This document shows positions 5,050-38,228 of a DNA stretch of 38,228 nucleotides, one piece after another (the stretch's first letter is position 1; the number at the start of each line of letters is the position of its first letter). The stretch covers positions 1 through 38,228 of IMG/VR virus record IMGVR_UViG_3300032053_000210, one strand, 5' to 3'. The position numbers and the translations under genes were made by a program. Source of the stretch: a virus. The notes beneath the pieces were generated by a model. That model ran no database searches and was not told the origin of the DNA. It saw nothing but the letters and a program-made list of their open reading frames with translations.

Positions 5050-7755
5050 TTAGGTTCCTGACATTTGTGCTGCAAAAGCTTGGGCTGCCAGTTCCGCTTG
5101 TCTTTCTTCCACAATATCCCTAGGAATTGTAACAGCCCCTCCTAGAGTCATAAGAAGCTGAGACACAGAAACCGCATTATTAAGGGCGCTAATAGTTACC
5201 TTCACCGGATCAATTATCCCTGCTTTAAATGGCTCAACTAACTGGTGTCGAAGTGAGTCATATAAAAGTGTCGGCATTAAGTTGCTATTTGGAGTTACTG
5301 ACCCCTGTACCACTGTGCCGGGATTTATTATGTCCTGTTGCGTAACTCCAGAATTGGATAGTATTCGATTAAAAGGGACCGTGAAAGAAGACGCAAGAAT
5401 GCTCTTTGCTGGCGTTTGTTTTTCACGGAGAACTAAGGAAAGAGCCAGCAATGCCGATCCTCCTCCAGGAACCACCCCCATCTCAATTGCGGATCGAACA
5501 GAGTTAATGGTATCTTCGATCCTATGTTTTTTTTCTCTAATCTCTAATTCGGATGTACCGCCGACATAAATAGTGGCAATTCCACCAGATAATTGACTTA
5601 CCCTCTCCTTAATGATCTCAGCGTCAAAATCGCTTTCTGCAATTTCCATTTGCTTTTTCAAAACCTCCATCCGTTCTTTTACGGCGTCAGAATCGTTCAT
5701 GCCTAAAATTACAGACTGATACCTACCTATACGACTCTGTTCACAAACGCCTAAATCTTCCACTTTGGCGCTTTTCAAGTTCTTTGATATGGGATCAAAA
5801 ACTGTTCCACCTGTGAAGGCTGCTAAATCATGTAAAAGATGATGTTTTGAGTTTGGTTGTGCAGTGGCAACGGTTTCCAGAAGACATATTGCTGCCCTAT
5901 TTGCTTTCACATTAAACGAAATAACTTGAATAACCTGTGGTGAAAACTTATGAGCCACAATAACCATCGGCTTGATATTATCGCCCATTTGAACAAATAG
6001 GTTTTGCAATGGAATTCCTAGATCTTGAGCAACATTTAAATCACCATCGTAGAGTAAAATATAAGGCAAATCAAACACACACTGCTGGTCTTCCGGTCGG
6101 TTAATGAAGAGTTCCTGAACTGCTCCAAGGCTATTCAGTCCCTTTTGAATCGGGAAGCCTTCCCTCATTTCCACTACCGTTTTACGTCCAGAACCATCCT
6201 CTGTAATAATTGTTCCGTCTTGGCCTACAAGATCAATAGCCTCAACAACGGATTTAGCCACGTCTTCATCAGAATTGGATGAAATCATAGCTACGTGAAG
6301 GAGTTCTTCGGGGGTTCCAATCGGTTTGGCACCTGCCTTAAGAAGCTCCACCATTTCGTTTGAGGTGGCGTCTAATTCCCGACAAAGTTCTTGAGGAGAT
6401 TTAGTAGGATTGTTTTTAAGGAATTTCATTCCTTCCTCAACAATAGCTTGGGCAAGGACAATAGCAGTAGTGGTATTGTGGGTGGTAATATAGTCATTCG
6501 TTATGTAGAGGTTATCTGGATTGCTTACTTTGATGCACTGCATGGGAGTTTTTGTGCCTGTGGCTGTAATTTTATCAATTCTATCCCCACACTTATCCTC
6601 TTTGAGCTGGGTAACTCTATATATCGGTGTCATAGAATAAGACATACCTTCTTTTCTAATTATTTTGGATAGGGTAACTGTTTGGCCAAGACTACGACAC
6701 AAATCCACCATGTCCTTAGCTAATTCTTCGCTAACACTACTGAATTCAAAGAGACCCCTAGTATTGATGTAGCCGTCCGTATCCAATAAGCCGTGAAGTA
6801 ATTGTTTTCTGTTTGCTATAGATGTATACAAATAAGATTTGGGGATAAACTTATTATCACTTCTTCTTCCGAGAAGACCTAGGGATGTAATAATATCTTT
6901 AATATAATTACCATGTCTATCTCTACCAGATATTTTTACACGATAAGAATGTTTCTCCTCTACGTAGGTGCTATTGGTATGAAAACCTTCGGGCAATATT
7001 AATTTATCAATAATGTGCTCCTTTTTCATCCCTAAAGATAGTTCAACTGACCCGGTTCCGCTTAAACTACCGTCTCCCAACAGCACCCCCACTAAGTAGG
7101 GGTCTAGAGGCATTTCAGCGGAATTAGTGTAAAATTCAACTAGGCTTCGAGGCGTATAATATTTTCTTCTTACTCCACCTTCTGAGTTGTAACTAACATA
7201 ATCTTTTAAAAGGTCTGAGACAGTCTTAATTTCTATATTTCCATATGGAGTGGTATTAACGTTGGCGACCATCCAGAGGTGATCACCACAACACTCCACT
7301 ATCCTCCCATTTGCAAACTCAATCCTATAAATTTCTTTCTCGCCCTTTGGAAACACACCTAACACTTTTTGAATTGTGCCATTAGTGCCACAAATATCCA
7401 TACCCACTCGCACGTCACCCATAGTAATAAAACCTTTAGGAGTTAAAATTTTACTATATAGTGGTTGGGGACCATCGCCAGCTTCCCTATTGGTTCTCTG
7501 ACAAGCTTCTTTAGCGGCTTCTGAAATAACATGTTCCGTGGAATTTGATAAAGAAACAGATTCAGCAACAGTTACTCCATCTTTCGTTATGAGAGGGGAA
7601 AAACCGGGTCTTTCAATAAGAACAGGATTTCCACCGGGACCTAATGTCACACCCACTAAATCACTAAGCATTTTCATAGTTCTTAAAGTTATGGCATCAA
7701 GCATTTCACCTTTAAGTATAATTGTTTTTGCTTTGGTTTTTAGTTCTGTTCCCAT
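5050..7755 (-). CDS. groEL: Phage GroEL-like chaperonin interrupted by an intein
   Basis: The 901-aa precursor is a GroEL chaperonin split by a 332-residue intein (residues 96-427), leaving about 569 residues after splicing. GroEL hallmarks are VGVTLGPGGNPVLI near residue 35, TKDGVTVAESVSL, the ATP-site sequence GDG|TTTAIVLAQAIVEEG restored by splicing, and VPGGGSALLALS late in the protein. The tail lacks the Gly-Met repeat of bacterial GroEL and ends AAQAFAAQMSGT. Known: some large phages carry a divergent GroEL that folds phage proteins, in some cases without GroES. I see no GroES gene here. The Asp in GDG is the ATP-hydrolysis residue, so the unspliced form should be inactive. It sits 9 nt after the methyltransferase-like gene in the leftward operon. 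Confidence 0.95.
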   Translation of the reverse strand: MGTELKTKAKTIILKGEMLDAITLRTMKMLSDLVGVTLGPGGNPVLIERPGFSPLITKDGVTVAESVSLSNSTEHVISEAAKEACQRTNREAGDGPQPLYSKILTPKGFITMGDVRVGMDICGTNGTIQKVLGVFPKGEKEIYRIEFANGRIVECCGDHLWMVANVNTTPYGNIEIKTVSDLLKDYVSYNSEGGVRRKYYTPRSLVEFYTNSAEMPLDPYLVGVLLGDGSLSGTGSVELSLGMKKEHIIDKLILPEGFHTNSTYVEEKHSYRVKISGRDRHGNYIKDIITSLGLLGRRSDNKFIPKSYLYTSIANRKQLLHGLLDTDGYINTRGLFEFSSVSEELAKDMVDLCRSLGQTVTLSKIIRKEGMSYSMTPIYRVTQLKEDKCGDRIDKITATGTKTPMQCIKVSNPDNLYITNDYITTHNTTTAIVLAQAIVEEGMKFLKNNPTKSPQELCRELDATSNEMVELLKAGAKPIGTPEELLHVAMISSNSDEDVAKSVVEAIDLVGQDGTIITEDGSGRKTVVEMREGFPIQKGLNSLGAVQELFINRPEDQQCVFDLPYILLYDGDLNVAQDLGIPLQNLFVQMGDNIKPMVIVAHKFSPQVIQVISFNVKANRAAICLLETVATAQPNSKHHLLHDLAAFTGGTVFDPISKNLKSAKVEDLGVCEQSRIGRYQSVILGMNDSDAVKERMEVLKKQMEIAESDFDAEIIKERVSQLSGGIATIYVGGTSELEIREKKHRIEDTINSVRSAIEMGVVPGGGSALLALSLVLREKQTPAKSILASSFTVPFNRILSNSGVTQQDIINPGTVVQGSVTPNSNLMPTLLYDSLRHQLVEPFKAGIIDPVKVTISALNNAVSVSQLLMTLGGAVTIPRDIVEERQAELAAQAFAAQMSGT
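6475..7470 (-). mobile_element. Class 3-type intein with LAGLIDADG endonuclease in groEL
   Basis: It encodes precursor residues 96-427. It starts with Pro (PQPLYSKILTPKG) rather than Cys, Ser or Ala, and ends TTHN before the +1 Thr. The class 3 signature is complete: Trp161 two residues after the block B His (CGDHLW), Cys407 at the block F nucleophile position (QCIKV, where class 1 has Asp or similar), and Thr425 in the final THN. Two LAGLIDADG dodecapeptides (LVGVLLGDGSL and LHGLLDTDGYI) mark an embedded homing endonuclease. In class 3 inteins the block F Cys attacks the N-terminal splice junction directly. Boundaries follow from restoring the GroEL GDGTTT motif. Confidence 0.92.
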
Positions 7756-7764
7756 TTTATATCC

Positions 7765-8583
7765 TTATTTTAATTGTTTAATAATTTCGTTACAATCTTT
7801 ACAAACCTTTTTATTTTCACTACAACCCCAAAAACTATGGCCAAGTTGTAAACTTGCTTTAAATGTTGAAAGTGTCAAAAAAGGATCAACAATAAGAGAA
7901 TTTGGCAATATATTCGATAATTTAATAATACTTTCATAAAGTTCTATTGGGGTAGAATCTCTATCATCAATTTTTATTTTCCAAACATTGCCAGGACAAA
8001 TATAATCTTCCTCACATTCTGGTAATGATTGTTTTTTAAGATAAACAATAGATTGTCTATCTAAGTGATAATTGTCTCCCTTGCTTAATAAAAAAACAAA
8101 ATCATATATATTATTTAATCTTTTAGCCCCTTGCGTTGGAGTAAATTTATTACGTACCCAAATAATAGTATCAATAAAATTGAAACCAACAGAAGTGAAA
8201 ATATCTATTAAGGCGAAGGGTCGTTCTTTACTTTCCTTGAGAGAAGAAACTACCAAATATAATAGGGTATTAGAATTCATACCGTTAAAAGCTTTATTAG
8301 CAACATAACCCGCTAATCCTTTAGAATAACCATCTTTTTCAGTAGCTGGAAAACGCGTAATCACTAAGTCTATATTTCTAGGCCAAATAGCAACTTCTGT
8401 AATGTTTTTATTTAATATTGTATATTCTGATTGTAATACATTAAAAGTTTTTTTAGAATTTTCCATTATTAATTCTATTGGGCATCTATCCCCTATAGTT
8501 AATTTGAGCCTTTCACATTGTTTTTTAAAATCTTCAATGAGTTTTGGTGGATGTTTAGTATTATGAAATTTACAATTTGACAT
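7765..8583 (-). CDS. DNA methyltransferase homologue with degenerate catalytic motifs
   Basis: A 272-aa protein with the beta-class (permuted) N4-cytosine/N6-adenine methyltransferase layout. The IDLVITRFP strand (71-79) stands where IDLIITDPPY is expected. FIDTIIWVRNK plus the following QGAKRLNN and YDFVFLLSKG match the middle of the fold. GNVWKI and TPIELYESII precede IVDPFLTLSTFKASLQLG (231-248), where DPFxGSGTTxxAAxxLGR is expected. So DPPY has become TRFP, and the SAM-binding FxGxG has lost its glycines. Methyl transfer is unlikely (inference). It could bind DNA, act as a decoy, or cap a missing partner. It is the first gene of the leftward operon, immediately behind the divergent promoter. 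Confidence 0.75.
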   Translation of the reverse strand: MSNCKFHNTKHPPKLIEDFKKQCERLKLTIGDRCPIELIMENSKKTFNVLQSEYTILNKNITEVAIWPRNIDLVITRFPATEKDGYSKGLAGYVANKAFNGMNSNTLLYLVVSSLKESKERPFALIDIFTSVGFNFIDTIIWVRNKFTPTQGAKRLNNIYDFVFLLSKGDNYHLDRQSIVYLKKQSLPECEEDYICPGNVWKIKIDDRDSTPIELYESIIKLSNILPNSLIVDPFLTLSTFKASLQLGHSFWGCSENKKVCKDCNEIIKQLK

Positions 8584-8594
8584 GAGATAATTTT

Positions 8595-8623
8595 ATTATA
8601 CTTTGTTTATTTTCTTTTGTTTA
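8595..8623 (-). promoter_or_regulatory. Leftward promoter of the divergent region
   Basis: Minus-strand TATAAT at 8595-8600 with a weak TAAACA -35 (8618-8623), 17-bp spacing. The -10 is only 12 nt from the methyltransferase-like ATG, giving a very short leader. It is probably the main promoter for the leftward operon. Confidence 0.5.
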
Positions 8624-8678
8624 AAAAAAATATAATTATTCCAACATAAGCGAACCGTTACATAAAATCTTACCTAAT

Positions 8679-8707
8679 TTGCTATTTATATGTATTTATA
8701 GTATAAT
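8679..8707 (+). promoter_or_regulatory. Rightward promoter of the divergent region
   Basis: TTGCTA (8679-8684), a 17-bp spacer and perfect TATAAT (8702-8707), 29 nt before the helicase ATG. The 8584-8736 region holds this and the opposing promoter and no gene. Confidence 0.65.
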
Positions 8708-8736
8708 AAAGAATATACGCTTTAAAGAAAATTAAA

Positions 8737-10263
8737 ATGCAAATAAAGATTGGAACTTCGAAATCATTAATCTATGATTGTCCTGAGAATTTAATAGAAT
8801 CTCTTATTTTGGATTTTACTTATACCAATACATCTATCTCTTTTCAAGTTTTTACTCATAAAAAGAATCGACAAAGAATTATATCTAGACTTGCTGCTAC
8901 TATTGCTATGAACAGAGCAGAAGCTGAATCAATGTGGAGGGAACAACTGATTGAAGTTTCAAAAGGATTAAAGGTTTCCTTAGTAAAAATGACCCAGGAT
9001 AAACTTATTGTGTTTCCTACTGGGTTATTAGAAAAAATATTAGATTTCTTTGATAAAAATGGCTTTTCAAAAGATCAATTAAGAGAAACATCTATCATCG
9101 ATTATCGCGTGAAACCAAAAGAAACTAATGGTTTCCCTATTGCCGGTAAACCTGCTCAATTAAGACCTTATCAAGAAACGGCAGTTAAAGAACTTTTATC
9201 CCATGGGCAAGGGACATTTGTTGGTTCTACAGGGAGCGGAAAAACTCTTGTAATTCAAGAGGTTATACGTAGATTGGGATTAAAAACTGTAGTAGTGGTT
9301 CCAAATATATCCATTCTAAATCAAACAGTGAAGAGATTTGAAAAATATTTCGGTACTAGATTGGTGGGAAAACTTGGAGATGGTAAAAGGGTATTAGACA
9401 AGAAAATTACGGTGGCGTGTGCGGCTTCTGTTGCTTTAACAACAGCTGATGATTGGAAGAACATAGATGTCGCTTTTTTTGACGAAACTCATCACGCGCC
9501 CTGTAAGACAATAGAAACAATAGCTTATAAGGTATTTCCTAATGCTTTTTATCGATTTGGAGCAACCGCGACTTGTTTTCGTACAGACGGGGCAGATCTC
9601 GCTATTGAGGCTGCTGTATTCCCTCCAGTATTTCAATATACCCTAGAAGATGGAATTAAAGATGGATTTTTAGCAACACCATCAACAATTATGTACCATG
9701 TTCCTTTTAATTCATATCGGAATTATTCTGGCAAAATTATGACCTATGCCTATAAATATCACGTTTTCAGAAATCACAAACTGACAAACTATATTGTTCA
9801 ACAAATTAATTCCTATCTAGATCAAGGAAAACAAATTTTAATTCTTGTTCGTGAAAAGGAACAGGGTTTTCATCTTCAATCTAAACTTCCTGGAGCGGCT
9901 TTTGTCCATCAAGGTCCTAGACCAGAAAAACTTGGTCCTGCCCCAGAACCCGTTTATAAAAAATCTACTGCTGCAGTGGAAGATTTCAATAAAGGGAAAT
10001 TGAGATGTCTTATTGCAACCTCGATTTTGGGAGAAGGAAGTGATCTCCCACCAGTGGATGTCTTATTCAATCTTTCTGGGGGAAAATCAAAGTTAGACCT
10101 TATGCAGCATGTAGGTCGTGGCCTTAGAAAGACTGAAACCAAGAAAGAGCTGATTGTGGTTGATTATATACACGCTACCCATGACCTACTCAAAAAACAC
10201 TCCATAGAGCGTTATAAGTGGTATCAGACAATTGGTAAGGTAGAATTAAAGGAATTACATTGA
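8737..10263 (+). CDS. SF2 DNA helicase (UvsW-like)
   Basis: A 508-aa superfamily 2 helicase. LRPYQ (Q-motif-like) is followed by Walker A GSTGSGKT (163-170), motif II DETHH (249-253), motif III GATAT (275-279), an ATSILGEGSDLPPVD motif V and QHVGRGLR motif VI. The N-terminal 130 residues are a separate alpha/beta domain, as in phage UvsW. The known role of UvsW-type enzymes is remodelling branched DNA: unwinding R-loops and D-loops and driving branch migration, which switches replication to the recombination-dependent mode. That fits the UvsX, gp46/47 and gp32 set in this window. It is the first gene of the rightward block, with its own sigma70-type promoter. Confidence 0.9.
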   Translation: MQIKIGTSKSLIYDCPENLIESLILDFTYTNTSISFQVFTHKKNRQRIISRLAATIAMNRAEAESMWREQLIEVSKGLKVSLVKMTQDKLIVFPTGLLEKILDFFDKNGFSKDQLRETSIIDYRVKPKETNGFPIAGKPAQLRPYQETAVKELLSHGQGTFVGSTGSGKTLVIQEVIRRLGLKTVVVVPNISILNQTVKRFEKYFGTRLVGKLGDGKRVLDKKITVACAASVALTTADDWKNIDVAFFDETHHAPCKTIETIAYKVFPNAFYRFGATATCFRTDGADLAIEAAVFPPVFQYTLEDGIKDGFLATPSTIMYHVPFNSYRNYSGKIMTYAYKYHVFRNHKLTNYIVQQINSYLDQGKQILILVREKEQGFHLQSKLPGAAFVHQGPRPEKLGPAPEPVYKKSTAAVEDFNKGKLRCLIATSILGEGSDLPPVDVLFNLSGGKSKLDLMQHVGRGLRKTETKKELIVVDYIHATHDLLKKHSIERYKWYQTIGKVELKELH

Positions 10264-10269
10264 TTTCTC

Positions 10270-10278
10270 TGGTATAAT
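10270..10278 (+). promoter_or_regulatory. Extended -10 promoter
   Basis: TGGTATAAT directly after the helicase stop, with no good -35, so an extended -10 promoter is likely. It precedes an AGGAG ribosome site and the ATG at 10294. Confidence 0.5.
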
Positions 10279-10293
10279 ATAATTAGGAGATTA

Positions 10294-10650
10294 ATGAGAG
10301 ATATAGACGATAAGGTTGCCGATTTGGTAAACGAATTTCCTAAACTAGATGATTACGAAAAACGTAATAAAATTAAGCTGTTAATAGAAAGTCTTGTTGG
10401 GGGTAATCTGCCTCCAATTAAGATCACAATTCAAGATCTTAATGAAATAGCCGCTATTGCCTCTTCTCATTATCGTAATCTTATTTTAACTTCTACCATC
10501 GACGGGGGAAAATTAACACCGGATATAATTCGCACTATTCTTTGGGTAAAAGGAGTTTCGGCTGTTTTGGGTAAAAAGGGATTACTCCCAAGAAAAGCTA
10601 TTGTCGAATTTGATGAATATTTTATAACCGAATCTGCATTTATTGATTAA
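10294..10650 (+). CDS. Hypothetical 118-aa protein
   Basis: An unrecognised, mostly helical, mildly acidic protein. It has an N-terminal charged helix (MRDIDDKVADLVNEF), a central VGGNLPPIKITIQDLNEIAAIASSHYRNLI segment and a C-terminal acidic end. No signal peptide, membrane helix or cysteine motif is visible. It has a strong AGGAG site, and lies 11 nt before the PhoH gene in the same operon. The function is unknown; position suggests a nucleic-acid metabolism accessory. Confidence 0.6.
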   Translation: MRDIDDKVADLVNEFPKLDDYEKRNKIKLLIESLVGGNLPPIKITIQDLNEIAAIASSHYRNLILTSTIDGGKLTPDIIRTILWVKGVSAVLGKKGLLPRKAIVEFDEYFITESAFID

Positions 10651-10661
10651 AAAGGACATAT

Positions 10662-11504
10662 ATGCCAAGAAAAATAATATACCAGGGGATATCTGTCGTA
10701 GAAGTCGCAAGTCTTGATGAATTTTATAAGACGGGCGCAATAGCATTGGCGGACTTACCCAAACGCAAATATTTTTTGAATGAAAATTTGGTAATTAAGG
10801 CAGAAAAGGGATCAGCCCTCGCCATCGTGAAAGATACTAGCGCCGTTCGGGTTTTAGAATTAACAGCATCTGGAATTGTCCCGAAATCTAAAGAACAAAT
10901 CTTTGCGTTGAATTCTTTGATGAACCCTGCAATTAAGGCCGTTACTGTAACAGGTAGTGCGGGAACAGGCAAAACACTGTTGGCGGTCGCGGCGGCACTC
11001 CAACAATCAGTTGGTCCAAAAGCCTTATATCGTAAAATATTTTATATTAAATCAGCAGTGCCGGTGGGACGTGATATAGGTTTTTTGCCAGGAAATTTTG
11101 AAGAAAAACTTGATCCTTTTTTTGGCGCATTACATGATTGTATTTCATTGATTCAATCAACAAAAGACATTGAGAAACTAATCGGATGGGATGAAAAGTC
11201 TAAAATTCAAAAACTTGCGAGTGCTTTTGTCCGTGGGAGAACTCTTCGTAAAGCGTTTGTTATAATCGATGAGGCACAAAATTATAGTATATTGGAACTT
11301 AAAACTATGTTAACGAGACTAGATGAGGATTCCAAGGTAGTTATTTTGGGTGATGTGGATCAGGTCGATGCCATTCTAAAACCCGAAAATGAAGGTCTTA
11401 TGAAAATTATTGAGATATTTAAAGAGGAATCTATGTTTGGACACATTAATTTGATAAAATCTGAGCGTTCAAGATTATCTCAACTTGTGGCTGAAAAATT
11501 ATAA
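10662..11504 (+). CDS. phoH: PhoH-like ATPase
   Basis: A 280-aa P-loop ATPase of the PhoH family. Walker A is GSAGTGKT (98-105). The family block IKSAVPVGRDIGFLPG is at about 128-143. RGRTLRKAFVIIDEAQN (190-206) includes Walker B, and the GDVDQVD block follows at about 255. The C-terminus ends ERSRLSQLVAEKL. PhoH-like proteins are widespread in phages; bacterial members are RNA helicase/ATPases, and phage roles are not settled. An HNH gene remnant abuts the stop codon with only 1 nt between. An AAAGGA ribosome site lies before the ATG. Confidence 0.93.
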   Translation: MPRKIIYQGISVVEVASLDEFYKTGAIALADLPKRKYFLNENLVIKAEKGSALAIVKDTSAVRVLELTASGIVPKSKEQIFALNSLMNPAIKAVTVTGSAGTGKTLLAVAAALQQSVGPKALYRKIFYIKSAVPVGRDIGFLPGNFEEKLDPFFGALHDCISLIQSTKDIEKLIGWDEKSKIQKLASAFVRGRTLRKAFVIIDEAQNYSILELKTMLTRLDEDSKVVILGDVDQVDAILKPENEGLMKIIEIFKEESMFGHINLIKSERSRLSQLVAEKL

Positions 11505-11505
11505 A

Positions 11506-11646: not shown

Positions 11647-11677
11647 TTAATATATAATTTTCATTTTACAAAAAAAC

Positions 11678-11707: not shown

Positions 11708-11751
11708 AGAATTGTGTCGAAGAATAATCTATTTAAAATAAGAGAAAAAAA

Positions 11752-13349: not shown

Positions 13350-13353
13350 TAAA

Positions 13354-19145: not shown

Positions 19146-19454
19146 ATGATTAAGTTGGATTCATATTGGAATGATAAAGTAATGGCGGGAAAAGTCAAAC
19201 AATTAAGAGATGAGTTACCTCAATTTTTTGAAAACGTTGAAGGCTATGATTTATTTCTGTCCTGGTTGAAATTTTCAGATTATAGTTGGTTGGAGCCCAC
19301 TCCCAAAGCTGTTGAAACCTTTATTGCTGAAATTGATATTGATAATTTAAAATTATTGAATGATTGCGATGATGGAGATGAAGACGGTGAGTTGGAAGAT
19401 TATGACAATTTGTTTACTACTGATTGTGATTGGTCTTTTGATGAAGAAAAGTGA
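19146..19454 (+). CDS. Highly acidic 102-aa protein
   Basis: I chose the ATG at 19146 because a GGAGG ribosome site lies just upstream, rather than an in-frame ATG at 19113. About 28 of 102 residues are Asp or Glu against roughly 9 Lys or Arg. The last 35 residues are almost all acidic (CDDGDEDGELEDYDN). The first 65 residues are Trp- and Phe-rich and helical. No family is recognised. Small, very acidic phage proteins are sometimes DNA mimics that block restriction or nucleoid enzymes. The neighbouring ArdC-like zincin fits that idea (inference). The HNH gene begins inside its 3' end. Confidence 0.6.
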   Translation: MIKLDSYWNDKVMAGKVKQLRDELPQFFENVEGYDLFLSWLKFSDYSWLEPTPKAVETFIAEIDIDNLKLLNDCDDGDEDGELEDYDNLFTTDCDWSFDEEK

Positions 19455-19752
19455 ATTTTATAATGATCCTATGAGGATGAGAGGAATTGCTACCTCATTT
19501 AAAAGGAATGGATTTAAAAAAGATTCGAAAACGGCGGCTATTCTGGGGTGTGATTTCGAAACCGCCTTTAAATCAATAGGCTGGTTCAGAGGTTGCGAAA
19601 TTCACCACATCGTCTATCTAAAAACCGCCAATACCAAAGAAGACGTGGAGCGTCTTAACCACTACACCAACCTAATTGCCTTAACCCACAAAGAACATAG
19701 GGCCGTACACAAGGGGATTTTTGAGTTAATTAATATGGGGAGAAAAAAATGA
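19441..19752 (+). CDS. HNH homing endonuclease, short form
   Basis: From the ATG at 19441, which overlaps the acidic gene by 14 nt, this gives 103 aa. The frame is open further upstream in the other gene's sequence, but that part looks like a shadow. The domain core (GFKKDSKTAAILGCDFETA, then IHHIVYLKTANTKEDVERLN, then ALTHKEHRAVH) matches the nuclease domain of the HNH gene at 1338-1967, with long identical DNA stretches. The zinc finger and tandem repeats are absent, so DNA targeting may differ or the gene may be a truncated derivative. It overlaps the cyclase-like gene by 4 nt and contributes its ribosome site. Confidence 0.8.
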   Translation: MKKSEFYNDPMRMRGIATSFKRNGFKKDSKTAAILGCDFETAFKSIGWFRGCEIHHIVYLKTANTKEDVERLNHYTNLIALTHKEHRAVHKGIFELINMGRKK

Positions 19753-26359: not shown

Positions 26360-28519
26360 ATGACAACAAATTGGTATTCCAGAATCCAAAAAATGGGGGA
26401 TGGCTTAATCGCAGATCAAATGGGGAGTACCTCTGAAGCGAAGAGGGTCCTTATCCCCTCTCCGAGCTTCAATTGGGCGGTAGGAGGGGGCCTAGTCTAC
26501 GGAAAAGTCTGTACCGTTTATGGGCCTGAGCAGTGTCAACCTGCTGGTTCTAAAGTGCTGATGGCGAACGGGGAGTTTAAAAATATTGAAGACATAAAGG
26601 TTGGGGATAATGTTCTTTCTCCTCAACGTAACGATGAATATAATTTTTCTACAGTTTTACACACAACCTCCTGGTTTTGTGAGGATATGTACACCATAAA
26701 ATCACTAAGAAAGAATAATCCAATATTATATTCTTGTTCCGGTAATCATATCGTTCCTCATACTTTTCTTGATCAACGAAAAATTCCCAAGACAAGAAAA
26801 AGCGGTCAATTCCGCGTTACCAGAGAATTGACCGCTAAAGAGATTTTTTCACTTAAGGCGGGACTGATACAAAACAGTCATGTCGTAACATGTCCCTTGA
26901 TCGCCAAGTTTAACAGGGCGGAAAATCCTCAGATAGACGGCTATGCGCTGGGGGTATATTTGGGAGATGGTCATCTTGCACCGAGTGGTCAGGTTAGTCT
27001 AACGAATGTCAATATGGGAATTTTGGATAGACTCTTATCATTGGGGGCAATTTTCCCCAGTGGTATTAGGGAAAGGAAAGGAAATCCCCATATAAAGGTG
27101 GTGACTTTAAGTAAGTTTCATCCGTGGGTTAAATATTTTGAAAAGGTTGGTTTATTGGGTAAATTAAGTCATGATAAGTTTATTCCAAACGAGGCTAAAT
27201 TTTCTGATTTAGAATATCGGCAAAACTTACTAACCGGTTTATTAGATACGGACGGGTATTATGATGTGAAAAAAAATACTTATGAATACGCCACCGTTTC
27301 AACACAACTGGCTAAGGATGTGCAGTTTTTGGTTCACTCATTAGGCGGATATGCGGGGATTTCTGAACGTTTTACTAGCTATAATAAGGGGGGAACGAAA
27401 TTTAAAAGTTATCGCCTATATATACAGCTTAACATGCAATTAAAGATGTTAAACAAATATAAGCGAATGAAATTCATTCCTTATAGGCGATCAAATTGCC
27501 GCCATCAGGGGTTTTTGATAGAGCGTTCTAACCCGCAACAGGTGTATGGTTTCGTGCTAGACTCCCCTTCAAACTGGTATGTTACAGATAATTATATTAT
27601 TACGCACAATTCAGGCAAGTCTTTGATAGCTCAATTAGCTATCGCCTCTATGCATAAAGAAGACCCTGAAGCTTGGGCATTATGGTATGATGCTGAGTTT
27701 AGTTTCGATTCCCAATATGCTTCTAAACTAGGAATAGACCTAAAACGTTTAATGGTTGTACAATCTAATAAGCCGTCTGATATTTTTGATCATTTTGTAG
27801 ATCAAATTCTTCCTATGTTACAGGATGAAGAACCTTTTCCTTTGAAGATTATGGTTATTGATTCTATTAAGTCAATTCGCGGCCCCAAAGAAGCTGACAA
27901 AGATTCGGTTGAGGCGCAGATCATGGGCGACCTGTCTCAGCTTTTGCAGAAGGCATTTCGCAAGATTATTCCGCCCATTAAGCAGAATAAGATCCTCCTG
28001 ATCTGTGTGCAACAGGTTTCAGAGGAGTTTGATCAGACACGAGTTATGCAAGGTCACAAATGGCATGTCCCGTCTGGAATGGCCCTCAAACACGCTTCTG
28101 ATTATATGATTCTTGTTGAGAAGGTTGAGAATAAAGCAAGTAAAATATTTGATGAAACCCATAAGGGTATCAGTAATCTTCCTATTCAATTGGGACACAT
28201 TATTCGCTGTAAGGTCGAAAAGAATCGTGTCAATTGTCCTCATCTCGTTGCTCAATTTAGACTTCAATATGGTGTTGGTGTAGTGGATACGGAACTTGAA
28301 GTTTGTGAACTTGCAGTTAATATTGGTGTAGTAAATAGACCTACACAAGCTGCATATGAGTTTGAAGGTATTAAAGTGGTAGGAATTGCTAACTTCGTGA
28401 ATAAAGTTAAAAAAGATCCCAAGCTTTATAACGCACTGGTTGAGGCTATTAATAAGACAGATGTTTTTAGGAAGAGGGAAGTACCTACAACTCCAGTTAT
28501 TGAGGATGATGAGGAATAA
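26360..28519 (+). CDS. uvsX: UvsX/RecA-like recombinase interrupted by an intein in its P-loop
   Basis: The 719-aa precursor is a RecA-fold recombinase with a 359-residue intein (59-417), leaving 360 residues. Extein parts: NWAVGGGLVYGKVCTVYGPEQ, joined after splicing to SGKSLIAQLAIASM, which rebuilds Walker A GPEQSGKS. Walker B is KIMVIDSIKSI. QNKILLICVQQVSEEF is the loop L1/sensor region and HASDYMILVEK follows. The acidic tail is VIEDDEE. UvsX coats ssDNA and performs strand exchange in recombination-dependent replication and repair. Because the intein splits Walker A, ATPase activity requires splicing. The ATG follows AAAGGAG. The stop overlaps the gp47 gene start by 1 nt. Confidence 0.92.
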   Translation: MTTNWYSRIQKMGDGLIADQMGSTSEAKRVLIPSPSFNWAVGGGLVYGKVCTVYGPEQCQPAGSKVLMANGEFKNIEDIKVGDNVLSPQRNDEYNFSTVLHTTSWFCEDMYTIKSLRKNNPILYSCSGNHIVPHTFLDQRKIPKTRKSGQFRVTRELTAKEIFSLKAGLIQNSHVVTCPLIAKFNRAENPQIDGYALGVYLGDGHLAPSGQVSLTNVNMGILDRLLSLGAIFPSGIRERKGNPHIKVVTLSKFHPWVKYFEKVGLLGKLSHDKFIPNEAKFSDLEYRQNLLTGLLDTDGYYDVKKNTYEYATVSTQLAKDVQFLVHSLGGYAGISERFTSYNKGGTKFKSYRLYIQLNMQLKMLNKYKRMKFIPYRRSNCRHQGFLIERSNPQQVYGFVLDSPSNWYVTDNYIITHNSGKSLIAQLAIASMHKEDPEAWALWYDAEFSFDSQYASKLGIDLKRLMVVQSNKPSDIFDHFVDQILPMLQDEEPFPLKIMVIDSIKSIRGPKEADKDSVEAQIMGDLSQLLQKAFRKIIPPIKQNKILLICVQQVSEEFDQTRVMQGHKWHVPSGMALKHASDYMILVEKVENKASKIFDETHKGISNLPIQLGHIIRCKVEKNRVNCPHLVAQFRLQYGVGVVDTELEVCELAVNIGVVNRPTQAAYEFEGIKVVGIANFVNKVKKDPKLYNALVEAINKTDVFRKREVPTTPVIEDDEE
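26534..27610 (+). mobile_element. Intein with LAGLIDADG endonuclease in the UvsX P-loop
   Basis: It encodes 359 residues from Cys59 (CQPAGSKVLMANGEF) to THN before a +1 Ser. Block B is CSGNH, the LAGLIDADG blocks are LGVYLGDGHL and LTGLLDTDGYY, and block F/G is YVTDNYIITHN. With Cys1, a penultimate His and final Asn it fits class 1 splicing. It begins with the same CQP/PQP-SKxL pattern as the groEL intein, and its endonuclease core looks related to it. Confidence 0.93.
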
Positions 28520-30740: not shown

Positions 30741-30743
30741 GTT

Positions 30744-32675
30744 ATGGGCCATCCTGAATTTATAGAGATTGACGGAAAAAAACTCACTACACTTGAATTG
30801 ATGTTGAGGCCGTGCAGCACCAAGAAGGATTTACATAATTGGATTAAGACTTTTCTTGGTCTTGATTTTCCTGATTGTATAGTTTGTGAGGAATCTACTG
30901 CTTCCCCGATGGATATGATTTGGAACACATATAGGGCGGCAATGGAAAATGATTTTTCTGAATCTAGTCAATTATACTTTGCATCCAGAGATTCGATGAA
31001 GACTTTGGGTGCCGCAATTATTGAACTTTTATTTCTCATTCATCACCGAAGAACCGCCACTCACATGGGTGCTATTAAGAGTCAATCTAAAAAATGTTAT
31101 GATTATTTCCGAGATTTTTTGAATCTACCCCTATTAGATAAAATTCCACGTCAATCTGAAACAATGGAGCATACGGAACTGAATATAAAAAATGAATGGA
31201 ATATTAAACCTTCTTTACATATTGTTATATGTACAATGCAGGGGGCCAATTCAAGCCATTCAAATTTACATGTGATTGATGAGATTGAGACTGTTGAAGA
31301 TGTCCGTGCCTACCATGAATCTAAGAAAATTCCGACTGAAACACCAGATAAAAAAACATCAATTACTCTTTATATCTCCACTAGAAAATCGAATTATGGT
31401 TTGGTTCAATATGAAATTGATAGGGCCAAAGAAAGTAATCTAAAAGTTCGTTCTTGGAATATTATTGATGTGACTCAAGCCTGTCCTAAAGAGAAGAGTA
31501 GGATGGATCGGGATATGGTTGTTAGATATTTTAATGAATCTAAATTATCCCTAATTTCTGAAGAGGAGTTTAATAATATTGAATTAATCCAACAATCAGA
31601 ATGGGTTCGTAAAGAAATGTATCCCGGATGTGTTAATTGTACTATATCTCCTCTTTGTCTCGGAAGGCTAGCAACAAAACAAACATCTACTTCTCGCTTA
31701 TTAAAGTCTCATAACGATGTGGAAAAGAAATTTAGGGAATCGGAATTGGATGACGCTCTTGCACAACTTATGTGTTTAAGAGCGTCAACACATGGTTTAG
31801 TGTTTACGACTTTTGATCAAAGAAAAAATGTTGTGACCCCTACGCAGATGTGGGAGATTTTCACTGGCAGTAAAGCACCATCAATTATTTCAAAAGATGA
31901 ATTAATAGAGACATTTAAACAATACAATGTACCATGTTTTACCGGACTTGATTGGGGCTGGGACGATCCAAGTGTTGCTATTTTTATTTATATTGATAAG
32001 GCCGATAATATCTATGTTGTACAAGAGTTTTCTGTGACCCATACTGATGATGCGGAATTTATAGAAATTTTAAAAAGGCGTTTTCATACTAAATTTAATG
32101 TTCAAATGTATTATCCTGATTCTTCCAATCCTTCCGGCATTAATTTACTTAAAAAAGCGGGTCTTGGAGTCTCCACTAAAAAGCTGGATAAAAGTATTCA
32201 TTTGGGGATTCAAACTATAAAACGTTTTATCCGTATTCCAGGCACCAATCAAACAAAGTTTTATGTTTTAGATGATTGTAGCGGATTATTAAATGAAATT
32301 AATAAATACCATCTTAAATTAGATTCTGCGGGGTTAATAATAGCTAGTGATGAGTATGATGATAAATTCAATCATAGAATCGATAGCTTAAGATACGTTA
32401 TACATAATCGGCTTGCTCGTTTTTCTGCTATGATTGAGTCAGGTGAGATCCCCAAAGATTCACAAACAATGATTCAGAATTCAGAAGGTAATTTTGTTCG
32501 TTCTCCCACCGTAACCGAATATGCCAAAGAACTCGGAATTCCATTCAATGATAATAGAGATCTAGTCGAAAAACAACAGAAAAAAGAACAGTTGGGTGAT
32601 AAATATCATGAAAAGGACAGCGGGAATGGTGGTGAATCAGGGGGGTCGAATTCTGGTTTTAGCTGGTCTTTTTAA
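30744..32675 (+). CDS. Terminase large subunit (packaging ATPase/nuclease)
   Basis: A 643-aa terminase. The ATPase half has a Walker A-like FASRDSMKTLGAAI (about 80-93) in which the usual Gly before Lys is Met, and a Walker B NLHVIDEIE. The nuclease half is RNase H-like: TGLDWGWDDPSVAIFIY with the first Asp, MYYPDSSNPSGINLLKKAG with the second, and DKFNHRIDSLRYV with the third acidic site. A Cys cluster (CVNCTISPLC) in the middle may bind metal. A Gly/Ser-rich tail ends GFSWSF. It pumps DNA into proheads and cuts concatemers. The ATPase and nuclease motifs are intact apart from the Walker A variation. Confidence 0.9.
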   Translation: MGHPEFIEIDGKKLTTLELMLRPCSTKKDLHNWIKTFLGLDFPDCIVCEESTASPMDMIWNTYRAAMENDFSESSQLYFASRDSMKTLGAAIIELLFLIHHRRTATHMGAIKSQSKKCYDYFRDFLNLPLLDKIPRQSETMEHTELNIKNEWNIKPSLHIVICTMQGANSSHSNLHVIDEIETVEDVRAYHESKKIPTETPDKKTSITLYISTRKSNYGLVQYEIDRAKESNLKVRSWNIIDVTQACPKEKSRMDRDMVVRYFNESKLSLISEEEFNNIELIQQSEWVRKEMYPGCVNCTISPLCLGRLATKQTSTSRLLKSHNDVEKKFRESELDDALAQLMCLRASTHGLVFTTFDQRKNVVTPTQMWEIFTGSKAPSIISKDELIETFKQYNVPCFTGLDWGWDDPSVAIFIYIDKADNIYVVQEFSVTHTDDAEFIEILKRRFHTKFNVQMYYPDSSNPSGINLLKKAGLGVSTKKLDKSIHLGIQTIKRFIRIPGTNQTKFYVLDDCSGLLNEINKYHLKLDSAGLIIASDEYDDKFNHRIDSLRYVIHNRLARFSAMIESGEIPKDSQTMIQNSEGNFVRSPTVTEYAKELGIPFNDNRDLVEKQQKKEQLGDKYHEKDSGNGGESGGSNSGFSWSF

Positions 32676-32693
32676 GTAATACGGGCTAAAAGA

Positions 32694-32702
32694 TGTTAAA
32701 AT
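32694..32702 (+). promoter_or_regulatory. Possible extended -10 promoter before structural genes
   Basis: TGTTAAAAT in the 60-bp gap between the large terminase and structural protein genes. The -35 is weak. An AGGAG ribosome site follows before the ATG at 32736. Confidence 0.35.
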
Positions 32703-32735
32703 TTAACGATATACCATATATAGGAGAAACATAAT

Positions 32736-33722
32736 ATGAGCACAAACCAGCTTTCTAATGTAATTATTAACTTTTTGGTGTATGACGATGGAGCCCAAAC
32801 TAATAATCCCAAGTTGCGCTCTGTCGATTGGTACAGGCAATATATTGGAGTACCTACTGGTAACTCATTTGGGCGTAGTTTTGACGTTCCCCCTTCTTCT
32901 ACTCTTCAGGTGGTCACTACAGCCCGAACCCTATCTCAAGACGCCACTACACAATATACTGTTTCTCTCTCTACTGGATATGTTTATCGTTGGCTTTTTG
33001 CTGCAGGAACCGATCCAGTACTTCGTACTCATAGGGCTTCTTCACAAGCCGCTTCAACTGTTTTTAACGTTACAAGAAGTGGAGATGTTGTAAGATATAC
33101 TTTCTCTGGTGTTGGGACTGATCCTAATTTTGCCGCAGGTGGTGTTGTAGTGGGTGATGGGGTCACTATCGAAGTGGGTAGCCCATTTAACGCATCAAAT
33201 GAAGGTACTTTTACTGTTGTCACCGTAACAGATGATTATTTTGAAGTTGTTAATGCTAATGGCGTAGCGGAAACTGGAATTGTATTAGGTGCCCTAATTG
33301 GTGGTGTAGCTCCTATGGATATTTATTCTTCTACAGGTGTTCAAATTGGAGATAATGCTAGAATTACTTCTATAGCATTCAATATTGAAAATCGTGGTGA
33401 TTTTCAGGTTAGTGCGGTAACATCAAAGTATTTTGAGATTTCTAATGGAAATCCCGGAATTCCACAAGGACCTATTGCTGTAGGATCTGCCACCGGAATT
33501 GTATTTTATCCTGACATTTATCAATGGTGTTATATTGAATCTGATCAAAAGGTTTCTATTCGTATTAATGCTGATACTTCAGATAACGTAGTTATTGAGC
33601 CCATTAGTACAGTAGTTCCAACCATGCCAGGTGTGTATCTTCAAAGAGGCGGAATCTATAAACTAGAGATTGCCAACAATGGAATAGCTTCTGCACAAGT
33701 AAAAGTGGCTTTAGCGGAATGA
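32736..33722 (+). CDS. Beta-rich structural protein with internal duplication
   Basis: A 328-aa protein, nearly all beta pattern with many Gly, Thr, Val and Ser, typical of virion components. Two repeats of about 46 residues are visible at about 140-185 and 205-250. Each follows G(D)-x-x-x-I-x-x-x-x-F-N, then (G)xFxVxxVTxxYFE(V/I). They encode small Ig- or SH3-like domains. The N-terminal 120 residues and C-terminal 70 residues are also beta-rich. I do not recognise the family. The position between large terminase and portal suggests a head decoration, head fibre or neck protein (inference). A good AGGAG site precedes the ATG. Confidence 0.6.
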   Translation: MSTNQLSNVIINFLVYDDGAQTNNPKLRSVDWYRQYIGVPTGNSFGRSFDVPPSSTLQVVTTARTLSQDATTQYTVSLSTGYVYRWLFAAGTDPVLRTHRASSQAASTVFNVTRSGDVVRYTFSGVGTDPNFAAGGVVVGDGVTIEVGSPFNASNEGTFTVVTVTDDYFEVVNANGVAETGIVLGALIGGVAPMDIYSSTGVQIGDNARITSIAFNIENRGDFQVSAVTSKYFEISNGNPGIPQGPIAVGSATGIVFYPDIYQWCYIESDQKVSIRINADTSDNVVIEPISTVVPTMPGVYLQRGGIYKLEIANNGIASAQVKVALAE

Positions 33723-33729
33723 GGAAAAT

Positions 33730-36700
33730 ATGACTTCGATTTGGGATAACCTCAACAGCAAATTGGATGAAGCTTTACATCTAGCTCATGCAGAGGATTT
33801 AGCTGATTCTACTGATGGACTAGTAAAGGGTGAAGACCCTATAGCTAAAGCGGAACGTGAAAAGAAACTCCTCAAACGCGTTGCGTTGGTTGATCCCAAT
33901 CTGGTAGCCTATTACGGTGGTGCTGGATTCGGACCCTATAAGCCTAGATTTTCTCATATTTCGTTTAAAACCCTTAAAGAGATGTCTCTTAGGGACCCAA
34001 TTGTTGCTACCATTTTCCAAACTCGTATTAACCAAATTTCCACTTTTGCACGTCCTCAAGCTAATCGATATGACACTGGATTTAAGATTTTCCCTAAAGA
34101 CGCTGGATTAGAAATTGAACCAGATTCTCAAGAAGAGCAAGAAGTTAAGTTTTTAACAGATTTTATTATGAATACAGGTATCATGGATGAAAACCGTGAT
34201 CCTAAAGATTACATGAATTTTGAGACATGGTTGAAACTGGTTACACGCGATAATTTAACTTTTGGCGCAGTGGCTATTGAAACCATAAGAGATCAACGTG
34301 AGCGTCTATATGCATTTTTACCTGTTCCCACTGAGACTGTATTTTATGCAAATAAATCTGTTTCGGATGAACTTGTTCAGTCACTAGCGGAAGGTAATAA
34401 ATCATCGTTTTTTAATGGCGCGGAAAAAGAACAAAAACAAGAAGATTATGATCAACGTATTGAACGATTAAAAGATGGCGAATATGAGTTTGTTCAGGTT
34501 ATTGAAGGCCGGATTGTAGAGGGTTTTTCGGATCAAGAATTAATTTATTCTTTAGGATATCCCAATAATTTTATTGACTCAAATGGCTACTGCTACGTTC
34601 CAGGAACTCTTGTATTGATGGCGGATGGTACGTCTAAAGTAATTGAAGACATCAAAATAGGAGATAGTCTTATTAACCACCTTGGTCAAACCGTTTCGGT
34701 TGAGAAGACAACACGTCGAAGCGTTCATGAAGACATCTTGCGTTTTCGTATCGGTGGATATACGCCATTTAGCGCGACAAAGAATCACCCGATTTATGCG
34801 GTTAATGATCCAATGTTTAGATTTAAAGTTGGAGAGATTAAACCGTCTTTTATTGCGGCTGAAGATTTAGTTAAGGGTTCTTATCTGGTGGTTCCCAAGA
34901 TTAAGTCGCTAGAAAAAACATACACTGTAGATTTGTGTGGCATTAGAGAATATAGACATCCAAATGGAATTGAGCGGGCATTATTAGGCAAGGATACTAT
35001 TCGTGCATGGGCACCAACTTCTCGGTGGCATGATCGTTACATTAACATAGATGAAGATTTAGCCTGGCTTGTTGGTCTTTATGCTGGCGATGGGTGTATA
35101 CATAGTGGCAATGGACATAAAGTGCGTATCGATTTATCTAATCATGAATCCTGGGTATGGGAACGGATTGAAAAGATTGCACAAAAATATGGGTGGTTTT
35201 ATAAGAGAAGTTGTGCATCTAAATCTGCCGGGGAATACACCAATGTATATATTGGTGATTCCGTTGTTGCTGATCTCTTTTCTTATTTAGTCCCCGGTAA
35301 GGCATTAACGAAACACTTTATTTCTCCATTACTGGAACTACCAAAGCAACAACTAAAACAATTATTGATGGGGTATATTGAGGCCGATGGGAGTTTGGTC
35401 CACTATAAAGGATGTTTTAATGGTGCCGTTAGGGCCGTGACCGCATCTTTAGATTTAGCTTCTCAATTATCATTAATTTCAAATAAGTGCGGAATATTAG
35501 CCCGTGTAAAGGAAGTAAAAGGGCATTCTCTAAATAATTTTGGTAATACTTATTTTACTATTTCTTTCCCAGGCAGTTTTGGCGGCTGGTGTGATACCTT
35601 AAAGGGAAGAGCGATTCATTCTACTAGTAAAAAGAGATATTTAGAGGATAGTGAAAATTTTTATGTTGTTATTAAGTCTATTGATAAGGAGTATCGCGAT
35701 GGTTGGGTTCACAATTTAGAGGTACCAAAAGGTAATTCCTATATAGCAGCTGGTTTCGCTACTCACAATTGTATTGGTATGCTGGAACAGGCCACTAGCA
35801 GCATTACGGGACACTTGCAGGCCACCAATTATAATAATTTATTTTTTTGTGTTTCTCCAGAATCTTTAATTAGAACTAAGAACGGAGAAATTTCCATACT
35901 TGATGCTTTCAATGAATATGGGGATGCCGAATTACCTATTTGGACCGGAAGAAAGTTCCATCAAGGTAGGGTATATAAAACAAGAGTATTAGAGGAATGT
36001 GAAACTCATCTTAAAAATGGACAAATTCTCAAGACAAGTGATGAACATTGGTTTTATACAATTAAGAGTGGGGAATCTGAGCCTAAGTTTGTTAATCAGC
36101 GTGACCTAAATCCTGGAGATATTCTATTAGTTTCTTGTGAGGGGTATAAGGGTAAGGGAGACTTTTCTAGAAAAATTTATTCCACCAATATCCCCAAATC
36201 ACATATTAATTATCACGAATGGGATTCTTCTAATGTTCAAGAAGATATGTTTGAGCTTTTGGGTTGGATAGCTGGCGATGGACACATAGGTAGACAAGAT
36301 GAGTTGGGTCGAGAAGCACCGATACAGATGTTTTATCATCACATTAAAGAGCTTAAAATTTTAAGTAGACATGAAGAGATTTTAAATAAATATGGTATTT
36401 CTTATAAAGTTAAACACATTCCATATTATGGTAAGAATAAAGTAAAATATGGCAACCATACCAATCCAAGAATTTTTATTCATGATGTTGCTTTTAAACG
36501 ATGGGTATTAGATTTAGGATTTGAAAGGTCGGGCGGTCGAAGGATAGCTCCGATTCTATTTACATTGCCCGAATCCTATCGACAAGCATTTTTAAGGGGT
36601 TTGTTTTCCGCAGATGGACATACAATTAAGAATCCCAATGGATATGGTACTCCCTCATTAGCTATAGTTGATCAGTATGACCGAAGTGATGTTGTGTCGT

Positions 36701-38228
36701 TACTCCTATCACTAGGAGTTCGTTCCACTTTGATGAAAAATTATAACAAGAAAAATTTAAATCCTTACATTGGAATACGAATTAAGGATGTTAATGCCTT
36801 TAAATCTATAGGATATATTCAGGAATATAAAAATGATTTTGATGATAGATCCCAACAGGTTATTAATAGATCAGATGTTGTCTCTTTAGAACTTTCTCGG
36901 GTTATTGCGGAGAAATTGTTAAAAGTTGTTGATGATGTTGCAATTAAGTCCCATTTATATCAAGTTAGGCAGGGAGAAAATAAATTATCCAGATTACATG
37001 CTCGTAGTTTATGTGCCGATTACGGTTTAGAAGAATTCATGGACGTATTAAGTTTTACCCATGTGCCTGTTTTAAATACTGTCAAGACCAACAAAATGGT
37101 ACAGATGTATGACGTTGAGATTCTTGATCCGATTCATCGTTTTACATTGAACGGAGTTCTCGTCCACAATACACATGGCTTTGCGTCACGCGGTTTGTTA
37201 TGGATTCAAGGCGATATTACCCCATCTCAACTTCAAAGTTTTAGGGCGATGTGGGCGGCCCAAATCGCTGGTAACGCCAACTCTTGGCGTACTCCAATTT
37301 TAGCGGGTGTCGATAATGTACAATGGGTACAACTTTCCGCTAATAATAGAGACATGGAATATAGCAATTATCAAGATCATATTATCCGAACACTTTGCGG
37401 TCTTTTTCAAATCTCTCCAGTAGAAATTGGTTTTGATTATCTCACTAAAGGTTCTGAACAAAAATCACTTGGAGAGTCCAATAACGAATGGAAAATTGAA
37501 GACTCTAAAGATCGCGGTTTAAGACCCATTATGATGTGGATTGAGAATATAATCAATACCTCTATCATTCCTGGTATCGATCCCGAACTTGGAAAGAAAT
37601 ATTCCTTTAGCTTTGTTGGGCTGGATGCGGAATCAAAAGAAGAAGAATTAGTCAGACAAGGCCAGGAAATGGCTTTACATAGTTCTCTTAACGAAATTCG
37701 TAAAGAACTTTCAAAAGATCCACTTTTAGCTGGTGATGTTCCATTAAATCCTATTTATTTGGATTTCTTGTTTAAGACACACACCATCGGTGAAATTCGA
37801 GAAAAGATTTTGAGTTATAAAGGCGCAATATCTGATCCACTTTATTCTTACATGAATGACGGTGGAGCTTTCTTACAAAATAGGACCGTCATGGTCCAGG
37901 CAATGAATCCTCAAGGTGGAGATCCAAACGACCCTAATGGCGGTGGACAAGTTGATGAAAATGGTAACCCTATTGAGGGTGGTAGTGGACAAGTTGATGA
38001 GGAAGGGAATCCAATAGAAAATGAGGAAGTATCCCCTGAATTTAGAGGTGGAAAAGAAGATCCCAAATTACATTCATCCCTACAAGATGGTAGGGAAGGA
38101 GTACAACAAGAAGAAGGGCAACCCTCTGAAGAGGAGGAAGGGCAATCTCTAGAAGGCGGTAATGAACAAGAAGCTGTTGATGCTGCGGTTGTTGAGTATT
38201 TAAAGGAACATCCTGAATTGCAAAAAAC
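33730..38228 (+). CDS. Portal protein carrying two inteins (3' end cut by window edge)
   Basis: The frame from the ATG at 33730 (GAGG site) stays open to the window end, 1499 codons. Removing two inteins (393 and 441 residues) leaves at least 665 portal residues. Portal features: PIVATIFQTRINQISTF, LTFGAVAIETIRD, FLPVPTETVF, then the spliced segment GY|CIGMLEQATSSITGHLQA, NYNNLFF|THGFASRGLLWIQGD, and later WRTPILAG, CGLFQISPVEIGFDY and GESNNEWKIEDSK. These match Mu/HK97-type portals. The C-terminal part visible is Gly/Glu-rich and low complexity with near-repeats (GGGQVDENGNPIEG, GSGQVDEEGNPIE). The portal ring is the DNA gate of the head and nucleates assembly. Confidence 0.9.
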   Translation, partial: MTSIWDNLNSKLDEALHLAHAEDLADSTDGLVKGEDPIAKAEREKKLLKRVALVDPNLVAYYGGAGFGPYKPRFSHISFKTLKEMSLRDPIVATIFQTRINQISTFARPQANRYDTGFKIFPKDAGLEIEPDSQEEQEVKFLTDFIMNTGIMDENRDPKDYMNFETWLKLVTRDNLTFGAVAIETIRDQRERLYAFLPVPTETVFYANKSVSDELVQSLAEGNKSSFFNGAEKEQKQEDYDQRIERLKDGEYEFVQVIEGRIVEGFSDQELIYSLGYPNNFIDSNGYCYVPGTLVLMADGTSKVIEDIKIGDSLINHLGQTVSVEKTTRRSVHEDILRFRIGGYTPFSATKNHPIYAVNDPMFRFKVGEIKPSFIAAEDLVKGSYLVVPKIKSLEKTYTVDLCGIREYRHPNGIERALLGKDTIRAWAPTSRWHDRYINIDEDLAWLVGLYAGDGCIHSGNGHKVRIDLSNHESWVWERIEKIAQKYGWFYKRSCASKSAGEYTNVYIGDSVVADLFSYLVPGKALTKHFISPLLELPKQQLKQLLMGYIEADGSLVHYKGCFNGAVRAVTASLDLASQLSLISNKCGILARVKEVKGHSLNNFGNTYFTISFPGSFGGWCDTLKGRAIHSTSKKRYLEDSENFYVVIKSIDKEYRDGWVHNLEVPKGNSYIAAGFATHNCIGMLEQATSSITGHLQATNYNNLFFCVSPESLIRTKNGEISILDAFNEYGDAELPIWTGRKFHQGRVYKTRVLEECETHLKNGQILKTSDEHWFYTIKSGESEPKFVNQRDLNPGDILLVSCEGYKGKGDFSRKIYSTNIPKSHINYHEWDSSNVQEDMFELLGWIAGDGHIGRQDELGREAPIQMFYHHIKELKILSRHEEILNKYGISYKVKHIPYYGKNKVKYGNHTNPRIFIHDVAFKRWVLDLGFERSGGRRIAPILFTLPESYRQAFLRGLFSADGHTIKNPNGYGTPSLAIVDQYDRSDVVSLLLSLGVRSTLMKNYNKKNLNPYIGIRIKDVNAFKSIGYIQEYKNDFDDRSQQVINRSDVVSLELSRVIAEKLLKVVDDVAIKSHLYQVRQGENKLSRLHARSLCADYGLEEFMDVLSFTHVPVLNTVKTNKMVQMYDVEILDPIHRFTLNGVLVHNTHGFASRGLLWIQGDITPSQLQSFRAMWAAQIAGNANSWRTPILAGVDNVQWVQLSANNRDMEYSNYQDHIIRTLCGLFQISPVEIGFDYLTKGSEQKSLGESNNEWKIEDSKDRGLRPIMMWIENIINTSIIPGIDPELGKKYSFSFVGLDAESKEEELVRQGQEMALHSSLNEIRKELSKDPLLAGDVPLNPIYLDFLFKTHTIGEIREKILSYKGAISDPLYSYMNDGGAFLQNRTVMVQAMNPQGGDPNDPNGGGQVDENGNPIEGGSGQVDEEGNPIENEEVSPEFRGGKEDPKLHSSLQDGREGVQQEEGQPSEEEEGQSLEGGNEQEAVDAAVVEYLKEHPELQK
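34591..35769 (+). mobile_element. Intein 1 of portal, with LAGLIDADG endonuclease
   Basis: It encodes 393 residues from Cys288 (CYVPGTLVLMADGTSK) to ATHN, with +1 Cys. Block B is SATKNHPIY (TxxH). The endonuclease blocks are LVGLYAGDGCI and LMGYIEADGSL, and block F/G is GNSYIAAGFATHN. All class 1 splicing residues (Cys1, block B His, penultimate His, Asn) are present. Removal restores SNGY-CIGMLEQAT, a conserved portal segment. Confidence 0.93.
35848..37170 (+). mobile_element. Intein 2 of portal, with LAGLIDADG endonuclease
   Basis: It encodes 441 residues from Cys707 (CVSPESLIRTKNGEIS) to LVHN, with +1 Thr. Block B is KTSDEHWF, the endonuclease blocks are LLGWIAGDGHI and LRGLFSADGHT, and block F/G is MYDVEILDPIHRF then LNGVLVHN. 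It has a different end sequence and +1 residue from intein 1, so it is a separate acquisition. Only 26 portal codons separate them. Removal restores NLFF-THGFASRG. Confidence 0.93.

Follow-up and report, generated by a model that had tools for sequence, protein, structure and literature searches.

Phage class 3 inteins are known from the P-loops of helicases, terminases and DnaX, where they sit at GxGK|T in nucleic-acid enzymes and mostly begin with Ala1. The mycobacterial class 3 DnaB inteins MchDnaB1 and MsmDnaBi1 have been solved as splicing domains, and the sole demonstrated class 3 redox switch is that of MsmDnaBi1, in which the catalytic Cys pairs with Cys48 (PMC6195587). Portal is already known as a phage intein host gene from the mycobacteriophage portal (PORT) inteins, and the published mycobacteriophage inteins are all located in nucleic-acid-binding proteins (PMC5050341). 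Two close inteins within one gene occur in haloarchaeal MCM, and such close neighbours hinder co-homing (PMC10643990).

The window analysed here is the complete IMG/VR record IMGVR_UViG_3300032053_000210, a 38,228 bp fragment of an uncultivated phage genome, which was used whole. Junctions read on the ORF translations revealed four inteins of 332, 359, 393 and 441 aa in the GroEL, UvsX and portal genes, and the reading frames were open through all three intein-bearing genes. LAGLIDADG and intein-splicing HMMs of Pfam and NCBIfam matched the intein-bearing ORFs, and relatives without inserts showed the exact empty sites, so the inserts represent real insertions. All four inteins retained the two LAGLIDADG motifs, acidic residues included. 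The initial annotation had described four full-length LAGLIDADG inteins, together of about 1525 residues, located at conserved sites in three core phage genes. Junctions, HMM matches and empty sites confirmed the four inteins, and the total was exact (1,525 residues), its 4,575 bp making up 12% of the 38 kb record. The sites are conserved as claimed, ranking between the 85th and 100th percentiles of local conservation (UvsX, 100th; GroEL, 99th; portal sites, 85th–98th), and the UvsX and GroEL inserts sit in nucleotide-binding loops. The count of three genes held as well, but GroEL is auxiliary and not one of the core phage genes.

The heavy homing load that had been proposed was upheld, as five LAGLIDADG_3 matches from the four inteins were found in 38 kb compared to 0–4 per comparison record. 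The comparison covered 14 other intein-bearing phage records of 19–484 kb (1–4 matches each) and 20 GroEL-intein contigs (0–4 matches each), both sets having been picked for their inteins and many of the records being fragments. The intein density of the record is high, while its kind is not unprecedented; at most three inteins per genome have been reported for an intein-rich crAss-like phage group (PMC7886860). The full set of four inteins was not found in any relative examined. Megablast analysis of 12 kb against phages produced no match, and an RNA family scan of the window gave none either, so no group I intron was indicated by that route.

The GroEL intein and its family

The phage GroEL (chaperonin) gene could be recognised from its translation on the complementary strand (5,050–7,755; Cpn60_TCP1, 8.9e-37, together with GroEL models). 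On the same strand, an intein of 332 aa (6,475–7,470) separates the N-extein (7,471–7,755) from the C-extein (5,050–6,474). The insertion falls at GDG|TTT, with the junctions GDG|PQPLYSK...THN|TTTA. The first residue of the intein is Pro, and no Cys, Ser or Thr nucleophile is present at position 1. The class 3 triad could be assigned to Trp66 (B:12), Cys312 (F:4) and Thr330 (G:5), using the block positions defined in PMC5050341, and a profile of GroEL inteins aligned the W, C and THN with those of the solved class 3 MchDnaB1 intein. The AlphaFold2 model (pLDDT 87.7) displayed the Hint splicing fold, and it matched the yeast VMA intein PI-SceI over the whole length (Z 25), and in its splicing domain it matched class 3 DnaB inteins (Z 17, 27% identity). 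The LAGLIDADG motifs, VGVLLGDG and LLHGLLDTDG, have their acids D133 and D232 intact. Judged from sequence and predicted structure, the GroEL insert is a non-canonical, class 3 intein; its earlier description as a full-length LAGLIDADG intein stood, while its class 3 nature without an N-terminal nucleophile had gone unnoticed. In the proposed route, Cys312 of block F would attack the Gly-Pro junction directly, the N-extein would next be passed to Thr+1, and Asn332 would then cyclise.

The GroEL intein has the same Hint and LAGLIDADG layout and the same Trp-Cys-Thr triad as the phage P-loop class 3 inteins, with approximately 29–36% identity over most of the length, and both end in THN|T. In contrast to the P-loop inteins, however, the GroEL inteins begin with Pro1 and occupy a chaperonin loop, GDG|TTT. 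The mycobacterial DnaB inteins align with the GroEL intein in splicing-domain fold and triad, but their solved structures are without an endonuclease, which the GroEL intein has, and the Cys48 redox partner of MsmDnaBi1 is missing from the GroEL inteins. PI-SceI, which gave the best full-length fold match for the GroEL model, is a class 1 intein of a different host gene, whereas the GroEL intein belongs to class 3. Class 3 inteins at GK|TTTA were also seen in the DnaX clamp loader and in SNF2-like helicases (L067, L060, L074, L081 and L088).

Relatives were reached by querying with alignments and by searching IMG/VR for the DNA pattern of HN|TTTAxV; single-protein IMG/VR scans with GroEL and portal returned no relatives. 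The DNA pattern revealed 72 loci, 20 of which were GroEL genes carrying an intein at the identical GDG|TTT ATP-loop site, while the remaining loci were chance matches or other P-loop proteins. Sixteen distinct GroEL inteins could be collected, namely that of the window and 15 further ones from IMG/VR. The Trp-Cys-Thr triad was present in all 16 and Pro1 in 15 (the window and 14 of the 15 others), and the GroEL inteins grouped in a single clade (100/100) to the exclusion of the P-loop class 3 inteins. Their endonucleases represent a decay series which runs from intact, through an intein whose second motif lacks the acid (L017) and one in which the first motif is deleted (L039, 263 aa), to the mini-inteins of L063 and L082 (146 aa). 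The L017 intein (IMGVR_UViG_3300025018_000138) has the full triad, yet it combines Cys1 with a second LAGLIDADG motif devoid of the acid.

Among named phages, no record covers an intein-bearing GroEL. A stricter pattern, limited in scope to THN|TTTAxV junctions and applied to one genome per species for 85,000 bacterial and archaeal species, yielded nine matches, all by chance, and no cellular GroEL intein. A search of the literature for inteins with GroEL or chaperonin, mostly outside subscription journals, did not find such an intein, and an earlier description is possible.

The UvsX and portal inteins and the HNH genes

The UvsX/RecA-like recombinase gene (26,360–28,519, forward strand; RecA, 5.7e-20) is interrupted in its P-loop by a class 1 intein of 359 aa (26,534–27,610, forward strand) at the site GPEQ|SGKS. 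The junctions, GPEQ|CQPAGSK...THN|SGKS, give the class 1 pattern C1...HN|S, with Cys1 and Ser at +1. Block B, where TxxH is expected, reads SGNH, so that the His is kept with Ser in place of Thr, and the LAGLIDADG motifs LGVYLGDG and LLTGLLDTDG have intact acids. PI-SceI was the closest solved relative by sequence (7.9e-10). Intein-free UvsX was observed in 11 of 12 relatives; in the closest of these, L273 (66% identical), GPEQ|SGKS is uninterrupted, and synteny between its contig and the window extends from the VWA gene to portal. The UvsX gene of G007 (L375:11946-13493) contains a 160-aa endonuclease-free class 1 mini-intein at a codon boundary identical to that of the window, and similarity between this mini-intein and the 359-aa intein was undetectable. 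The UvsX site is occupied twice independently. The short N-extein DNA of the window (26,360–26,533) has 50% GC and 53% GC3, compared to 38–39% GC and 32–36% GC3 elsewhere in the gene. A match to the N-terminal region of the UvsX intein was also seen in a 1,558-aa ORF of a near relative (G024:58131-58262), which is probably another intein in a different gene.

The portal protein gene (33,730–38,226, forward strand; Phage_portal, 2.4e-11) is open at the record end and contains two class 1 inteins, both on the forward strand and separated by 78 bp of extein. Portal intein 1 (34,591–35,769; 393 aa; intein_Cterm, 1.8e-05) lies at NGY|C with Cys1 and Cys at +1 (NGY|CYVPGT...THN|CIGM), and portal intein 2 (35,848–37,170; 441 aa; LAGLIDADG_3, 5.8e-13; Intein_splicing, 7.5e-06) lies at LFF|THG with Cys1 and Thr at +1 (LFF|CVSPES...VHN|THGF). 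They show the class 1 patterns C1...HN|C and C1...HN|T, respectively. Block B is TKNH in intein 1, in accordance with TxxH, and SDEH in intein 2, with the His kept and Ser for Thr. The acids are intact in the LAGLIDADG motifs of both intein 1 (VGLYAGDG and LLMGYIEADG) and intein 2 (LLGWIAGDG and FLRGLFSADG). In the UvsX and portal inteins, the class 1 route would begin with an acyl shift at Cys1, followed by transfer to the Ser, Cys or Thr at +1 and by Asn cyclisation.

Both portal inteins were absent from all of the 80 nearest portal genes. This first scan was ranked by the best segment and was biased against split genes; a repeat with a query downstream of both sites gave the same outcome, with 76 of 76 portal genes being without an insert there. 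The near clade has Ala, Cys or Ser at +1 of site 1 and mostly Thr at +1 of site 2, while the wider set has Pro and Gln, respectively; thus, a splice-capable +1 residue occurs only near this phage. No sequence similar to portal intein 2 was found among 50,697 phage records, and its match to solved structures was weak (0.043). The portal pair resembles the haloarchaeal MCM double inteins in the closeness of two inteins within one gene, but the host gene and the lineage differ.

Three HNH-family loci had been annotated within 5,050–38,228, of which one passes the Pfam cut-off. This gene (874–1,341, complementary strand; HNH, 4.9e-07) and the HNH-like gene next to it (1,338–1,967, complementary strand; weak Pfam match to HNH_2, 0.0092) lie outside that range, while the short HNH-like gene at 19,360–19,752 (forward strand) has no Pfam match. 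The latter shares 72% identity over 82 aa with the C-terminal portion of the gene at 1,338–1,967, so that two genes 18 kb apart have an HNH-like module in common, as if one had been copied from the other. The gene at 874–1,341 is near the recombination endonuclease in the window, unlike its 58% identical homologue in G031 (L378:3736-4146), which lies directly before the portal gene. It is a putative free-standing HNH endonuclease gene that moves.

Homing and the alternative explanations

Intein presence was sporadic for all four inteins, with exact empty sites in relatives. The comparison with related phages for intein-free alleles, which the initial annotation had suggested, revealed inteins in 0 of 80 portal genes, 1 of 12 UvsX genes and 1 of the 80 best-ranked viral GroEL genes, the other 79 being intein-free. 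GroEL was also intein-free in the near kin G028, G031, G033, G038 and G039 and carried the intein in G007. With a probability of roughly 0.87, the four inteins of the window are independent mobile elements that owe their persistence and spread to the LAGLIDADG homing endonucleases they encode, carried by a tailed phage that is a distant relative of Myxococcus phage Mx1. After translation, every intein would splice itself out, and spread would take place when the endonuclease cuts an intein-free allele during co-infection and repair copies the intein in. We infer both the splicing activity of the inteins and the DNA cleavage. Intact endonucleases, sporadic presence and all stages of decay are predicted by homing alone.

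The inteins could instead be long-term vertical residents, in GroEL and elsewhere, that were lost in some lineages and have little current mobility. Intein and extein distances of GroEL correlate (Spearman 0.47), which points to a partly vertical history, and several relatives have decayed endonucleases. However, the AU test rejected identical histories both ways, with p=0.001 for the intein tree given the extein data and p=0.042 for the extein tree given the intein data. Mean identity was 51% for the inteins compared to 37% for the exteins, and the inteins were the less diverged in 89 of 91 pairs, a gap to which fast evolution of phage GroEL could contribute. On the extein tree, GroEL genes with and without the intein are interleaved, and the sisters L056 and Mx1 (100/98) differ in carrying and lacking it. 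Two inteins without detectable similarity at the same UvsX codon boundary also speak against long residence, which is unlikely. The TTTA half-site of GroEL is common to an intein in the P-loop of the DnaX clamp loader (GSGK|AQPL...THN|TTTA; L067), and we infer that the GroEL intein lineage originated when a P-loop intein jumped from GK|TTTA into the chaperonin loop at GDG|TTTA. A chimeric contig, an annotation error or insertion elements other than inteins would be conceivable for a metagenomic fragment in which portal intein 2 has no named-phage match and gave a single-sequence fold with a pLDDT of 30. Such an artefact is hardly credible, given that the frames are open throughout with correct junction residues, splicing and LAGLIDADG HMMs match the ORFs, the exteins are in unbroken synteny with G035 and 20 other contigs also carry the GroEL intein. 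Of the explanations weighed, artefact and purely vertical inheritance were both rated as less probable than homing.

The initial annotation had further suggested a tuning of splicing to infection conditions, so that conditional splicing would time chaperonin, recombinase and portal activity to the infection state. Unspliced GroEL and UvsX would be inactive, since the insert breaks the ATP site. The placement of both inserts in nucleotide-binding loops of the 99th–100th percentile of conservation is consistent with such timing, as are the persistence of endonuclease-free mini-inteins in relatives (UvsX of G007, 160 aa; GroEL of L063 and L082, 146 aa) and the precedent of the redox-sensitive class 3 intein DnaBi1 of M. 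smegmatis (PMC6195587). Homing into conserved DNA, however, equally expects placement in active sites. All four endonucleases look intact, close kin are without each intein at the same site, and the set is common to no relative examined. The redox-trap partner equivalent to Cys48 was Cys in none of the 16 GroEL inteins and Ile, Val or Leu in all of them, in the register of the MchDnaB1 alignment. With intact endonucleases, sporadic presence and every stage of decay in the GroEL family, no positive evidence for tuning was obtained, and it is highly improbable. With endonuclease-free members persisting, a retained function may exist in some lineages. A narrower version is very unlikely. In it, the GroEL inteins would form a class 3 lineage specific to chaperonins, with a conserved Pro1 that fixes the Gly-Pro junction of the ATP loop and thereby makes the chaperonin active only after splicing, and the endonuclease-free members of some phages would be kept switches rather than parasites.

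Chaperonins as intein hosts

The new content of this analysis is the chaperonin insertion site for class 3 inteins together with the conserved Pro1, and the chaperonin joins the list of intein-invaded proteins. Set against the mycobacteriophage inteins, all of which are in nucleic-acid-binding proteins, the repeated occurrence of the insertion in GroEL suggests that intein sites are set by the conserved DNA of nucleotide-binding loops and not by protein function. Since proline cannot be the first nucleophile, the near-invariant Pro1 puts the class 3 mechanism to a clean natural test. With alleles that are intact, decaying, endonuclease-free or empty at a single site, the set offers a usable series for the homing cycle in phages.
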